DNA of 64,000 bases from the NCBI GenBank assembly GCA_947493255.1, contig CANLQK010000001.1, forward strand, positions 62,001 through 126,000, in the 5' to 3' direction. The notes under the pieces are model-generated. The model was not told the DNA's origin and ran no database searches. It worked only from the letters and a program-made list of their open reading frames with translations. The position numbers and the translations under genes were made by a program. The DNA comes from an uncultured Paracoccaceae bacterium. Its GTDB lineage: Bacteria > Pseudomonadota > Alphaproteobacteria > Rhodobacterales > Rhodobacteraceae. Below are positions 56,828 through 62,188 of this stretch, piece by piece; position 1 is the first letter of the stretch, and each line of letters opens with the position of its first letter.

Positions 56828-57172
56828 ATGCTTAAATTGGGGGCAAAATTGCGGTTTTTTGGCTTAAAATCATGCGATACCTGTCGAAAAGCGCTTAAAT
56901 CTTTGGCGGCGCTTGATGTGGAAATCATCGACGTCCGTGCGGATGGGGTGTCTGATATTGACCGAAAAGCGATCCTTGCAGCCTTCGGTGATGCGGCCAT
57001 GAATACACGGTCAACGACGTGGCGTGGGTTAAGCGATGAAGAGCGCGCCAAAGGGGCGGATGCGTTGATCGCGGCCCACCCGACATTGATGAAACGCCCT
57101 GTGATCGAAGCCGACGGTGTCTGGTATCAGGGATGGACACAAGCAACGAAACAGGCGCTAGGAGTAGAGTAA
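56828..57172 (+). CDS. ArsC/Spx-like thioredoxin-fold protein
   Basis: A 114-residue protein of the arsenate-reductase-like (YffB/Spx) family. The FFGLKSCDTCRKALKSL motif has the CxxC near the N-terminus, and RSTTWRGLSDEER and MKRPVIEADGVWYQGW follow the family pattern. It is a small cytoplasmic oxidoreductase or adaptor, not necessarily arsenate-specific. Its stop overlaps the next start (TAATG). Confidence 0.85.
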   Translation: MLKLGAKLRFFGLKSCDTCRKALKSLAALDVEIIDVRADGVSDIDRKAILAAFGDAAMNTRSTTWRGLSDEERAKGADALIAAHPTLMKRPVIEADGVWYQGWTQATKQALGVE

Positions 57173-57534
57173 TGCGGAATGCAGCTGGAGTATTGGGGTT
57201 GATCGCGGGTTTGATCGGGATCGTCGTTGGGTTGTTCGGCTACGGGATGGTGGAGCTGTCCAATCGTGTGCCGGAAGCAGATTGGAACTTATTCGAAAAC
57301 CCGGCCTTTGTTCAGTTCGCGAGCTTTATCGCCCCATTGCTGTGCATTGCCGGTGGTGCAATGGCGCGGTCGCGGGCCTTGTGGGCCGGTATTGCAATGT
57401 TGCTGGGCGCGGGCGCGTTTTATGCGGCGTTCGGGTTCAACGTTGCGACGATGTTCCCGATTGGATTCGCCGGTTTGGGCGGCCTACTGGCGATTGCAGC
57501 AGGCCGACCAGACGAAGAGAAATCACATTTCTGA
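57172..57534 (+). CDS. Small integral membrane protein of unknown function
   Basis: A 120-residue inner-membrane protein with four hydrophobic segments (AAGVLGLIAGLIGIVVGLFG; FASFIAPLLCIAGGAMA; LWAGIAMLLGAGAFYAAFGF; FPIGFAGLGGLLAIAAG). The start overlaps the preceding gene (TAATG), so it is cotranscribed. It ends 12 bases inside the convergent DoxX gene. I recognise no family. Confidence 0.65.
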   Translation: MRNAAGVLGLIAGLIGIVVGLFGYGMVELSNRVPEADWNLFENPAFVQFASFIAPLLCIAGGAMARSRALWAGIAMLLGAGAFYAAFGFNVATMFPIGFAGLGGLLAIAAGRPDEEKSHF

Positions 57535-58065
57535 ACGACGTTTTGACAGGATCCGGTCCACAGACAGTGGGCCGGCGCCTTTGATCACCAGTGTGATCAA
57601 GACCACCATCCAGAATGCGCGTTGATCAAGGATCGCGCCGTCAGGAAGTCCATCGAACCATTTGCCGAGCGTTTCCACATGCGCGATTCCGCCGTGACCA
57701 AACAGGTCCGTTAAGGATTGCACAACGACGAAGCCGATCATGCCGAGGGCGGCAAAACGGGTTAGTAGACCAATCACGATCAAGAGCGGCAGGATGTATT
57801 CGGCCAACGTGCCCGATACGACAACAGCCCAGTGGAATAGGCCAAGTTGGCTGGCGTCATAGCCAGCAGCTTCCATAGCTTTCGGGAAAATCTGTGCATA
57901 GCCGCCGAGGCTGGGGGAGAAGGGCGTTCCATCCCATTTTGTACCTGCTGAGTTCCAGAAGTAGATCAACAGGGTTGCTGCGAACACGAAACGGGCAAGT
58001 GTTGGCAAAATGGCATCAGAGGATGCGTTTAGAGTGCGGGTCAGACGGTCATAGAGTGTGATCAT
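57523..58065 (-). CDS. DoxX family membrane protein (bufferin operon member)
   Basis: A 180-residue membrane protein with four hydrophobic segments (RFVFAATLLIYFWNSA; HWAVVVSGTLAEYILPLLIVIGLLTRFAAL; MIGFVVVQSLTDLFG; FWMVVLITLVIKGAGPLSVDRIL). The DoxX fold may be a quinone-linked electron donor. It is the last gene of the minus-strand group bufA, bufB, bufC, DoxX, 12 bases after bufC, and DoxX is a usual companion in bufferin operons, so it may supply electrons for the peptide modification. Confidence 0.85.
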   Translation of the reverse strand: MITLYDRLTRTLNASSDAILPTLARFVFAATLLIYFWNSAGTKWDGTPFSPSLGGYAQIFPKAMEAAGYDASQLGLFHWAVVVSGTLAEYILPLLIVIGLLTRFAALGMIGFVVVQSLTDLFGHGGIAHVETLGKWFDGLPDGAILDQRAFWMVVLITLVIKGAGPLSVDRILSKRRSEM

Positions 58066-58077
58066 GGTTTTGGTCTT

Positions 58078-58812
58078 TCAGGTCTTGAGGGTAGAAATTG
58101 CGTTTCGGCTAAGAAGAAGGCCCAAGAGGGTGCCAAAATCAAAGCCTGCACCGCCTGCTTGGATTGCTGTTCCAAGGGGCGTTGCATTCTTAAGGGCGGT
58201 CAAAACGGCGCCCTGTTCGGGGGTGAGCGGGTCAACCTGCGGGTCGAATTCGGGACGTGTCACCAAGGTGGGCTGCGGTGAATTTGCGATTTCGCCGCCA
58301 GTCGTGTTTGCGGCCCAAATGCTGTGCAGCGGGAATGTCGATTGGACAAGCCGCACAGAGGGGGCGAATTCGAACGTCACGTGGGGCAGGCTGTCTGGTG
58401 GCAATTGCCCCAAGGCGTCTGGGGCCAAAGTCGGGGCATCTGCCGCGTGATAACTTTCGCGCAAGGCCAATTCCAGACGTGCGACATCGGGGAGGTAGGG
58501 CACGGATTGGGCAGGCGGGAAGCCTTCCAAAAAGGCAGGCATCGTGTCGCCGTAAAACATCATGAGCGGGGATTTCGGCGGATGCGCACGTAGATAAACG
58601 CCTGCCATCGCATGGAAAAATTCATCCCCGACGAGTTTTTTCACAACCGGAAAGGCGGTTTCGAGCGCATCGGTTAGGCTAACGGCGACATTGTTGCGGT
58701 AGACATCGAAACGTTTACTTGCGGCTTCGCCACCGGGGTTACAGACGCCGTTTGGTGTTGGGGCCTGCGGGTCGAGAAGGGCTGCCCGAAAATCTGCCTG
58801 CGTGCTCAACAT
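58078..58812 (-). CDS. bufC: DUF2063-type partner protein of the bufferin enzyme
   Basis: A 244-residue cytoplasmic protein. The N-terminal DUF2063 region reads ADFRAALLDPQAPTPNGVCNPGG, RFDVYRNNVAVSLTDALETAFP, VKKLVGDEFFHAMAGVYLRAHPP, and VPYLPDVARLELALRESYHA. It binds the precursor or assists DUF692 enzymes in other systems. It overlaps bufB by seven bases, so the two are coupled. Start chosen at MLSTQADF, family-like. Confidence 0.88.
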   Translation of the reverse strand: MLSTQADFRAALLDPQAPTPNGVCNPGGEAASKRFDVYRNNVAVSLTDALETAFPVVKKLVGDEFFHAMAGVYLRAHPPKSPLMMFYGDTMPAFLEGFPPAQSVPYLPDVARLELALRESYHAADAPTLAPDALGQLPPDSLPHVTFEFAPSVRLVQSTFPLHSIWAANTTGGEIANSPQPTLVTRPEFDPQVDPLTPEQGAVLTALKNATPLGTAIQAGGAGFDFGTLLGLLLSRNAISTLKT

Positions 58813-59660
58813 GCGGCAACCGTAGTAAGGGCACGGTCGGCGCGTTTGGCTTCCTCCGCGAGAATGGGCCATTCAGGAACATCGGTGTCCCATTCGATCA
58901 ACAGCGGTTTGGGGCCTGTCTTGGCTAAAGTGTAGTCGAGCAAGGTCCAAACAGGGTCCACGACTTCGCGGCCATGACTGTCGATCAGCAACGGCGCGCC
59001 GTGTTCATCTTCATCTTCGTCGTGACCGCCTAGGTGAATTTCACCAACGTGATCAAGGGGGTAGGCGTCAATGTAGCCTTGCGGAGAATAACCAAGGTTC
59101 GTGGCGCTGACGAAGACATTGTTCACATCTAACAACAGGCCACAGCCCGTGCGCGCCACGATTTCGGCGAGGAAATCTGTTTCGGACATGTCGGATTCAG
59201 CGAAGGCCAAGTAGCTCGATGGGTTTTCCAATAGCATTTGGCGACCCAAGGTCGATTGAACCTGATCGATATGGTCGGCCACACGTTTTACCGTTGCGGC
59301 TGTGTAGGGCAGCGGCAGCAGATCGTTCAGAAATGCGCTGTCATGGGATGACCATGCGAGGTGTTCGGAAAAACTGGCGGGCTGGAGCCAGTCACAGAGC
59401 GTTTTCAACCGCGCAAGGTGGTCTGCATCAAGGGGGCCTTCGCCACCGATGCTGAGGCCGACGCCGTGCACGGAGAAAGGAAATTTTTCGGACAGGTGGC
59501 GCAGCTGCGCTAAGGGGCGGCCGCCGAGCCCCATATAGTTTTCGGCATGAATTTCGAGCCAGCCGACAGGATCTGCATTTGCCATGATGTCGTTGAAATG
59601 CTGCGCCTTATACCCGACACCCGGTTGATTGGGCAGTTGGCGTGGCGTTGCATCAAACAT
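58806..59660 (-). CDS. bufB: DUF692 multinuclear non-heme iron oxidase (peptide-modifying enzyme)
   Basis: 284 residues, a TIM-barrel MNIO. The metal-binding blocks are HAENYMGLGG, FSVHGVGLSIGG, SEHLAWS, LENPSSYL, DVNNVFVSATN, GEIHLGGH and DSHGREVVDPVW. Such enzymes oxidise cysteines of a precursor peptide to sulfur-containing heterocycles that bind copper. It lies between bufA and bufC. The start MFDATPRQ gives the usual short N-terminus before GVGYKAQHF. Confidence 0.92.
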   Translation of the reverse strand: MFDATPRQLPNQPGVGYKAQHFNDIMANADPVGWLEIHAENYMGLGGRPLAQLRHLSEKFPFSVHGVGLSIGGEGPLDADHLARLKTLCDWLQPASFSEHLAWSSHDSAFLNDLLPLPYTAATVKRVADHIDQVQSTLGRQMLLENPSSYLAFAESDMSETDFLAEIVARTGCGLLLDVNNVFVSATNLGYSPQGYIDAYPLDHVGEIHLGGHDEDEDEHGAPLLIDSHGREVVDPVWTLLDYTLAKTGPKPLLIEWDTDVPEWPILAEEAKRADRALTTVAAC

Positions 59661-59730
59661 CAAAGGCTCTCCTGAAATTGCGTGCGCCCACCCTAACACG
59701 GATGGGCGCAAAAGTCATTTAAGCGTTTGC

Positions 59731-60033
59731 TTATGCAGGGATGTCGCGGTCCAGCTCTTCGAGGGAACCCATACGCTCAACACCGTCAGCTGCGTCTGTG
59801 ATGGATGTTGTTTCGCATGTGCCCGCTGGGACCAATGTCCATGCGTTGCCCTGGTAATCTACTGTAGATGTACCGGCGCAAGTTGTGCCTGGGCCTGCGG
59901 CGCAGTCGTTTTCGCCAGCCAATGACACACCGAAACATTTCTCGTTTGCTTGAGCGTGAGCAGTAGTGGACAGGCCAGCAATTGCTGTTGCTACGGAAGC
60001 TGCGAGAGCGAGAGTTGTTGTTGTCTTAGACAT
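59731..60033 (-). CDS. bufA: Bufferin precursor peptide (DUF2282 family)
   Basis: A 100-residue precursor. A Sec signal peptide (to AHA before QANEKC) leads to a mature chain with four cysteines at 33, 44, 52 and 73, in [24 protein letters not shown] and [12 protein letters not shown]2282 bufferins carry these, two of which become oxidised heterocycles used in copper binding in the periplasm. Followed by bufB, bufC and DoxX, exactly the known operon order. No sigma factor gene lies near, so regulation of the operon is unknown. Confidence 0.93.
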
Positions 60034-60179
60034 AACAGGTAATCCTATAATTAGTTGCGTGACCGCCTATGAGGGGCGATTGAGAGTACATTAAAGCATC
60101 GCCGAGGTGGATTTCCATTCACGGGAGCGTGTCTCTCATTGGCGTTATCTTCCGTTAGTATGGCAAAAGTATGAACGCC

Positions 60180-60217
60180 AATAAAATAAGGCCCGCCCAT
60201 TAACCATGAGCGGGCCT
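60180..60217 (-). terminator. Intrinsic terminator after thrS
   Basis: AGGCCCGC (60210-60217 on minus sense) and its complement (60189-60196) form a stem around CATGGTTAATG with TTATTTTATT following on the minus strand. It starts 25 bases past the thrS stop and separates thrS from the bufA promoter, which must lie in the next 145 bases. Confidence 0.75.
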
Positions 60218-60241: not shown

Positions 60242-62188
60242 TTACAAAAGATCGGGTGCTGTGGCCGATTTTGAGAGCTCCGCGACGATCTCATCGAGAG
60301 ATGTTACAGACGTTTTCTTCTCTCCGAGGCGGCGAACGGAGACTGTTTTCTCTTCAACTTCACGGGCACCACAGGCCAGAATCACAGGGACTTTGCCCAA
60401 TGAATGTTCGCGGACCTTATAGTTGATCTTTTCGTTGCGAGTATCGGCCTCGGCGCGAACGCCTTTGGCACGCAGGGCGGCAACGACTTCGTTCACGTAA
60501 TCATCGGCGTCCGAAATGATGGAGGCGACGACAACCTGACGCGGTGCGATCCAGAACGGCAGTTTGCCGGCGTTTTCTTCGATCAAGATACCGATAAACC
60601 GTTCAAACGATCCCAGTGTCGCGCGGTGCAACATGACGGGGCGGTGTTTTTCACCATCCGCGCCGATGTATGTCGCATCCAGCCGTTCAGGTAGGTTGCT
60701 GTCTACCTGCAAGGTGCCACACTGCCAGTCACGGCCGATGGCATCGGTCAAAGTGAATTCCAGTTTCGGACCGTAGAAGGCACCTTCGCCCTCTAAGATT
60801 TCAAAATCGTGACCTGCAGCTTTACAAGCATCGCCCAAGGCCTGTTCCATCTTGTCCCACACTTCATCAGACCCGATCCGTTTTTCAGGACGGGTGGAGA
60901 GTTTGATGGTCCAGTTGTGGAAGCCCAAATCGGCATAGACTGTCGAGAGGAAGTCGATGAAGATTTTGGTCTCTTCTGTGATCTGATCGTCGGTGCAGAA
61001 GATGTGACCATCATCCTGGGTAAAGCCGCGCACGCGCATGATGCCGTGCAGCGCGCCAGATGGTTCATAGCGGTTGCACGAGCCGAATTCGGCCATGCGC
61101 AAAGGCAGGTCGCGGTAGGATTTCAGGCCTTGGTTGAACACCTGCACGTGGCATGGGCAGTTCATCGGCTTGAGCGCGTTAACTGCTTTCTCGCGTGCGT
61201 GTTCTTCGTCGACTTCGACGATGAACATGTTTTCTTGGTATTTATCCCAGTGACCAGAAGCTTCCCACAATTTGCGGTCAACCACCTGCGGTGTGTTCAC
61301 TTCGACGTAGCCACCCGCGTCCTGTTTGCGGCGCATGTAGTCCTGCAAAGTGGTGTAAACGCGCCAGCCGTTGGGGTGCCAGAACACCTGACCGGGGGCT
61401 TCTTCCTGCATGTGGAAGAGGTCCATTTCCTTGCCGAGTTTGCGGTGGTCGCGCTTTTCGGCTTCCTCAAGGAAGTTCATGTATTCGCGCAGTTTTTCCT
61501 TGTTCTGGAAGGCCACGCCGTAAATGCGTTGCAACATCTGACGGTCACTGTCGCCGCGCCAGTAGGCACCGGCGATAGACATCAGTTTCCAGCTGTCGCC
61601 CGGCACTTGGCCGGTGTTTTGTAGGTGCGGGCCACGGCAGAGGTCCTGCCAGTCGCCATGCCAATACATGCGCAGGTCTTCGTTGCCCGGAATGCTTTCG
61701 ATCAGTTCAACCTTATAGGGTTCACCACGGTCCTTGTAATACTGGATCGCAGTGTCGCGTTCCCAAACCTCGGTGCGGACGTCATCGCGTTTGTTGATGA
61801 TTTCTTTCATCTTCTTTTCGATGGTCGCGAGGTCTTCTGGAGTGAAAGGTTCTTTGCGATCAAAGTCATAGTACCAGCCGTTGTTGATCACGGGGCCGAT
61901 GGTGACTTGGGTATCAGGCCAGATTTCTTGCACGGCGCGGGCCATGATGTGCGCCAGATCGTGGCGGATCAATTCCAGCGCAGGCTCTTCGTCCTTCATG
62001 GTGTTGATGGCGATGGAGGCATCGGAATTGATGGGCCACTGCATGTCCCAATGTTCACCGTTCACGGTGGCTGAGATTGCTTTTTTGGCGAGGGAGGATG
62101 CAATTGATGCGGCGACTTCGGACGGGGTTACGCCTGCGTCGTAGTCACGGGAATTGCCATCGGGAAAGGTAAGGGAGATTTGGGCCAT
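60242..62188 (-). CDS. thrS: Threonine--tRNA ligase
   Basis: A 648-residue class II synthetase. The N-terminal TGS domain starts [19 protein letters not shown], the editing domain has [17 protein letters not shown], the catalytic core has [21 protein letters not shown] with the zinc cysteine, and the anticodon domain ends near [21 protein letters not shown]. It charges tRNA-Thr. Single gene with its own terminator. Confidence 0.97.

Follow-up and report, generated by a model that had tools for sequence, protein, structure and literature searches.

A conserved palindrome upstream of a roseobacter bufferin operon as a candidate alternative to sigma-F/NrsF control

What controls a bufferin operon that has no sigma factor or anti-sigma gene beside it? 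The question is raised by a stretch of 64,000 nucleotides from an uncultured Paracoccaceae bacterium (assembly GCA_947493255.1, contig CANLQK010000001.1, positions 62,001 to 126,000 of the forward strand), the whole of which is hereafter called the window, where bufA, bufB, bufC and doxX follow one another on the minus strand at 57523-60033. Operons of the Buf1 type have a core of precursor, MNIO enzyme, DUF2063 protein and DoxX; the central cysteines of the precursor are modified, the outer two form a disulphide, and sigma and NrsF genes have been found in such clusters (PMC12452194). Our reading, to which we assign a probability of roughly 0.8, is that the window carries a roseobacter Buf1 operon whose lineage-specific candidate regulator would act on a palindrome, in place of sigma-F/NrsF control. 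The operon itself is of known kind; new and open to testing are three features, namely the control element, the mutual exclusion of this element and sigma-F, and a bufA-bufB hairpin.

The palindromic element between thrS and bufA

Upstream of bufA lies a conserved element with the consensus TNACG-N4-CGTGA-NN-CACG-N4-CGTGA, whose half-sites at 0, 9, 15 and 24 make up a single 29-bp palindrome. It is placed in the window, together with the promoter-like hexamers next to it, as follows:

Conserved control element, 60114..60147, minus strand: 29-bp four-half-site palindrome at 60119-60147 plus 5 bp; far end 114 bp upstream of the bufA ATG
Putative -35-like hexamer TGGAAA, 60112..60117, minus strand: beside the element
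Putative -10-like hexamer TAATGT, 60088..60093, minus strand: at a fixed distance from the element

The motif was seeded by eye and fitted to 77 upstream regions, those of the window and of 76 of 80 named relatives (four had no usable region); these relatives are the best 80 of the 197 loci found and the set is therefore biased towards near kin. The 34-bp site scores above 15 in 76 of the 77 regions, with L086 as the sole miss, and the element mostly starts 105-128 bp before the bufA ATG. Because seeding was by eye and the fitted regions are also those scored, the genome scans are the better evidence. The scan of family genomes used a cut-off of E 0.05 or better and strict filters, so that its counts are lower bounds, and some of these genomes are possibly close to the training set. 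Within the window the element is the only site; with 3 mismatches allowed at most, the plain palindrome pattern has a single occurrence there, where 0.06 would be expected. Across the organism's own genome (24 contigs, 99.78% complete) the site at bufA is the only significant one (E 1e-4), the next reaching E 0.56 inside an open reading frame (ORF). At least 86 of 198 genomes sampled from the family have a match. DUF2282, the precursor domain, is present in 140 of these 198 genomes (and in 65 of 190 sampled from the class), and 76 of the 140 have the element within 700 bp of the DUF2282 match, the distance that we count as being by bufA; 13 of 93 element matches lie elsewhere.

The alignment continues beyond the element without gaps, showing a conserved T and G at +30 and +32 and a TA...T box at +54 to +59. 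It was from the column profile of 76 sites that the two hexamers were placed, by eye, on the window sequence. Literature searches returned no published description of the palindrome or of the hairpin; the few aimed at these features yielded no paper on bufferin peptides either, so that absence from print does not follow. The words promoter, operator and thrS do not occur in PMC12452194.

Two of the 13 sites away from buf genes were examined. One (L146) is inside an ORF. The other (L145:2775-3354, G197:C4; E 1.7e-4) lies about 100 bp before a gene for an exported protein that we take to be YHS-like, Pfam giving no match at E 0.001; a TetR-type gene then follows on the opposite strand. In another genome (G083) a YHS-like gene adjoins bufA by coordinates. 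The exported protein was considered as a second member of the regulon and rejected, since none of the top 30 among the YHS-like loci found has the element; it remains a lead only.

Exclusion with sigma-F/NrsF and competing explanations

No NrsF was found across the own genome, which agrees with the lack of an adjacent sigma or anti-sigma gene remarked upon in the preliminary description. Upstream of the window's bufA the best match to the sigma-F motif GTAACC-N16-CGAA (PMC3511200) has 3 mismatches, at most one being accepted as a match. NrsF is linked to DUF2282 (within 5 kb) in 16 of the 140 family genomes with DUF2282, and the element is by bufA in none of these 16 against 76 of the other 124, 48 genomes having neither. 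Of the 16 NrsF-linked loci, 12 were examined for the sigma-F motif, which precedes bufA in 8 of them; among 77 named relatives it does so in 1. For a BufB tree 119 loci were submitted, 40 of the 80 named ones included, and 113 rows were used; the element is present in 60 of these, all within a single supported clade that comprises 72 rows (99/95, from a bootstrap that had not settled completely). The clade's remaining rows comprise 9 with neither feature and 3 with the sigma-F motif, and the two occur together in 0 of 113 rows. In two of the clade's three sigma-F rows (L155 and L179) the thrS-bufA interval contains an nrsF gene beside a gene with Sigma70 regions 2 and 4, and no palindrome was found there. 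These patterns would most simply be read as a single gain of the element, which was then lost several times and displaced by sigF-nrsF on two or more occasions. Where sigma/anti-sigma control would be expected, the window has another conserved control element.

Several results weigh against this reading or narrow it. The exclusion between element and NrsF reaches a Fisher p of 1e-6 with relatedness ignored, and restriction of the element to one clade accounts for part of it. The element label changes 8 times on the BufB tree, 4 of the changes being forced by well-supported branches, which means many losses or missed sites. The sigma-F motif is missing, at no more than one mismatch, from 4 of the 12 NrsF-linked loci. 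The own genome contains no second significant site, and a scan for consensus promoters found none on the bufA strand. Finally, the 48 of 140 genomes with neither the element at the threshold used nor a nearby NrsF show that the two control modes are not exhaustive; these genomes may have a third control mode or decayed sites.

The rival explanations were weighed against the same material. Control in trans by an extracytoplasmic function (ECF) sigma factor, sigma-F, encoded elsewhere would accord with the sigma and NrsF genes known from Buf1 clusters and with one locus (L184) that has a one-mismatch sigma-F motif upstream of bufA and its NrsF far off in the genome. We hold it to be very improbable, given an own genome in which no NrsF was found, the three mismatches at the window's bufA and a conserved element unlike the sigma-F motif. 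Just as little credence is given to the element being the end of thrS or a structured RNA and no bufA operator. In favour of this, it is situated between thrS and bufA and consists of halves in inverted repeat. Against it, the element keeps its place at bufA where the two genes are separated by an ORF or additional DNA (L162, L175, L088), it is upstream of the putative promoter, its pairing covariation is not above shuffles (a control with partners slid by +2 scored above the structure itself) and no Rfam match appears at E 0.1. A repressor, and not an activator, bound to the palindrome is a tentative alternative of greater weight, since four-half-site palindromes fit both signs and the element abuts the -35 region. 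We still think it unlikely, as site centres at about -44 and -59, reckoned from a start guessed 7 bases after the -10, together with a poor -35 hexamer would suit an activator.

The remaining alternative touches the ligand and not the control. Among the sigma-F-dependent genes of Caulobacter are presumably its bufferin genes. Such sigma-F-dependent genes respond to chromium and cadmium (PMC3511200), bufferin operons induced by gold and MerC fusions are on record (PMC12452194), and one off-buf copy of the element precedes the YHS-like gene, all of which leaves some room for a peptide that handles a metal or stress other than copper. This is doubtful, less so than sigma-F in trans or an RNA and more so than a repressor: the Buf1 product of Caulobacter is a ligand of both Cu(I) and Cu(II) and aids growth in excess copper (PMC12452194), and the mutants described in PMC3511200 showed no extra sensitivity to chromium or cadmium.

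Operon, hairpin and precursor

Judged by its profile matches, 57523-60033 is a true and complete Buf1 bufferin operon composed of the following genes:

bufA, 59731..60033, minus strand: 100 amino acids (aa); Buf1 (DUF2282) precursor; Pfam PF10048, E 1e-23, 83.5 bits against a cut-off of 22.4
bufB, 58806..59660 (from ATG), minus strand: 284 aa; MNIO (DUF692) bufferin maturase; PF05114 (MbnB_TglH_ChrH), E 1.7e-105
bufC, 58078..58812, minus strand: 244 aa from ATG; MNIO partner with DUF2063 and an RRE-like domain; PF09836, E 1.8e-27
doxX, 57523..58065, minus strand: 180 aa; DoxX-family membrane protein, last gene of the operon; PF07681, E 2e-7, 32 bits against 23.6

All four Pfam matches (DUF2282, MbnB_TglH_ChrH, DUF2063, DoxX) exceed the curated cut-offs, and BufB scores over the cut-off of NCBI's equivalog model NF050167 MNIO_BufB (375.2 bits against 310). 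The preliminary description had drawn the same genes in the same order and place, called them a complete bufferin operon and proposed searching BufA with DUF2282 and BufB with DUF692 (MNIO) profiles, taking a missing DUF2282 match as evidence to the contrary; both profiles match. A single MNIO gene and a single DUF2282 gene were found in the own genome. Less favourable to the identification, BufA matches none of the NCBIfam models, BufC stays under the NCBI HvfC cut-off (42.6 against 142) and DoxX under the HvfX equivalog cut-off (28.9 against 80). A longer bufB ORF of 301 aa begins at an upstream TTG (59711). The 7-base overlap reported for bufB and bufC holds with the ATG start of bufC; with the next codon, TTG, it becomes 4 bases, the overlap present in 68 of the 77 relatives where both ORFs could be drawn.

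Alignment of 81 BufB sequences (the window's and 80 others) has 35 columns of His, Asp, Glu, Asn or Cys that are more than 95% conserved, and the protein resembles PDB 3bww (E 2.3e-47), TglH and MbnB. BufC found no match by sequence search against PDB, and its relatives were found through its fold. An AlphaFold2 model with a predicted local distance difference test score (pLDDT) of 91.8 retrieved, by Foldseek, the TglI entries 8hci (E 2.5e-6) and 8hi7 (E 8.6e-6) and NGO1945 (3dee, E 5.5e-3), over 261 and 268 columns for the two TglI entries and 223 for NGO1945, with query template modelling (TM) scores of 0.50-0.62. The modelled fold thus supports BufC as a partner of PME-type 1, with DUF2063 plus an RRE domain, as described in PMC12452194.

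The gap between bufA and bufB holds the third feature of interest:

Hairpin, 59683..59710, minus strand: 11-bp stem (one G-T pair), 6-nt loop, no T tract; fold z -4.85

Among 69 such regions (the window and 68 relatives, 12 being excluded for gap length or a missing ORF), 57 fold with z below -2 against shuffles, and 60 contain an uninterrupted stem of at least 9 bp (G-T allowed), compared with 2.5% of simple shuffles. Hairpins start 6-52 bases (median 10) after the bufA stop, come in 59 distinct sequences and have a T-rich tail in 7 cases. Structure and rough place are conserved, sequence is not. We infer that the hairpin acts as a message stabiliser or a weak terminator that favours the precursor.

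In BufA, cysteines 33, 44, 52 and 73 are all present, as first described, and are invariant across 33 aligned precursors. An n- and an h-region and an AHA cleavage site are recognisable by eye at the N-terminus, with a likely cut after A27, a residue at least 90% conserved in the same alignment. The last cysteine is followed by 27 residues and not by 25 as initially counted, and the tail that they form ([12 protein letters not shown]) is indeed acidic, with a net charge of -6, but is not unusual in this, since 16 of 86 precursors of named relatives equal or exceed it. It lies outside the Pfam match, which spans residues 30-76. R96 and D97 are invariant among the 33 aligned precursors, and an RD-x-P tail is found in 85 of the 86 precursors of named relatives. 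Two other family sets, which overlap, have it in 25 of 31 and in 39 of 47 precursors, and the class set has it in 3 of 30, of which one (L250) actually belongs to the family. Beyond the family the ending is usually shorter and of GSL type. These counts leave out three loci without a precursor match (L071, L095, L167) and a YHS locus (L216), and do not use the looser precursor pattern, which also picked up chance ORFs. The acidic tail is, as far as these alignments go, a conserved lineage trait and no oddity.

Two possible partners of the tail were rejected. For DoxX, RD-x-P tails occur at loci with no tblastn match to the window's DoxX (L153, L156, L157, L159, L169), which does not mean that doxX is missing there, and short tails occur with DoxX (L150-L152). 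For NrsF, RD-x-P tails are also present where NrsF is nearby (L153, L155). Preliminary evidence in PMC12452194 has the signal peptide as part of recognition by BufB-BufC, from which we offer, as a guess, that the tail might be a second contact. The BufA structure model is of low confidence (pLDDT 57.8), too uncertain for placing the tail. Tandem bufA genes precede a single bufB at eight of 76 loci (L086, L088, L089, L090, L093, L096, L107, L108), the second copy having a variant tail with PSL replacing GSL in six of them (L089, L090, L093, L096, L107, L108). In L162, L164, L174 and L175 a segment is inserted before the RDLP of the tail, and additional residues follow it.

The nearest named relatives are Pseudooctadecabacter and Octadecabacter, with BufB 87-94% identical in the ten best, and the BufB tree agrees. 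By tblastn the 80 named loci contain bufC in 80, bufA in 79, doxX in 78 and thrS in 76 cases; thrS-bufA-bufB-bufC-doxX keep order and strand in 74, and five of the six that deviate are cut by contig ends close to the operon. This kept order and the frequency of DUF2282 show that the operon is common and retained in place in the lineage, and no special acquisition. Two further features flank the operon upstream:

thrS, 60242..62188, minus strand: conserved neighbour upstream; TIGR00418, 671.6 bits
Terminator-like hairpin, 60189..60217, minus strand: after thrS, between thrS and bufA; 12-pair stem followed by a T-rich tail

The terminator scan overall returned 2 such sites against 3.6 in shuffles. 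On the other side, a small convergent ORF (57133-57534) shares its last 12 bases with the end of doxX. Beyond it come an ArsC-like and a cold-shock gene, which have matches in 71 and 65 of 80 relatives respectively.

Proposed mechanism and related systems

We envisage that the operon has its own promoter downstream of thrS, and that a dimeric or tetrameric regulator, most likely an activator, binds the palindrome just upstream of the putative -35 and -10. The hairpin would probably protect the bufA message, so that precursor exceeds enzymes. BufA would be synthesised with a Sec signal peptide and, by analogy with known systems, held in the cytoplasm by BufC while BufB oxidises C44 and C52 to thiooxazoles, 5-thiooxazoles having been assigned to this enzyme group (PMC13097082). 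The modified peptide would then be exported, form the C33-C73 disulphide and chelate periplasmic copper, export and copper role being presumed for this strain, with DoxX as a probable membrane accessory. Joined into one proposition, namely a dedicated metal-responsive regulator of roseobacter bufferin operons on a four-half-site palindrome, of one origin in one clade, exclusive with sigma-F/NrsF and displaced at least twice by sigF-nrsF entering between thrS and bufA, with a hairpin that splits precursor and enzyme expression, these elements stand in our view at even odds.

The Buf1 operon of Caulobacter vibrioides (PMC12452194) is alike in its four-cysteine DUF2282 precursor, MNIO and DUF2063-RRE partner. 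The window differs from it in the palindromic element, the genome in which no NrsF was found, the position after thrS and a longer BufA tail that ends in RD(I/L)PA. The captophorins fontiphorin, oxazolin and gonophorin share an MNIO and a PME-type 1 partner, often with DoxX close by, but their precursors have EGKCG repeats, whereas that of the window is of the DUF2282 group (PMC13097082). TglH/TglI (8hci, 8hi7) are a related MNIO and a partner of similar fold; TglHI differs in modifying the C-terminal cysteine of a precursor without a signal peptide (PMC12452194).

As an operon, the locus is one more case within families collected in thousands (PMC12452194). Its RD-x-P tail may be a handle for how BufB and BufC recognise a precursor bearing a signal peptide, a question left open in the Discussion of that source. 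The palindrome and sigma-F would be alternatives whose switch is testable in sister species, and the palindrome offers a short, specific DNA bait for the regulator of a copper-chelating peptide system in a major marine group.

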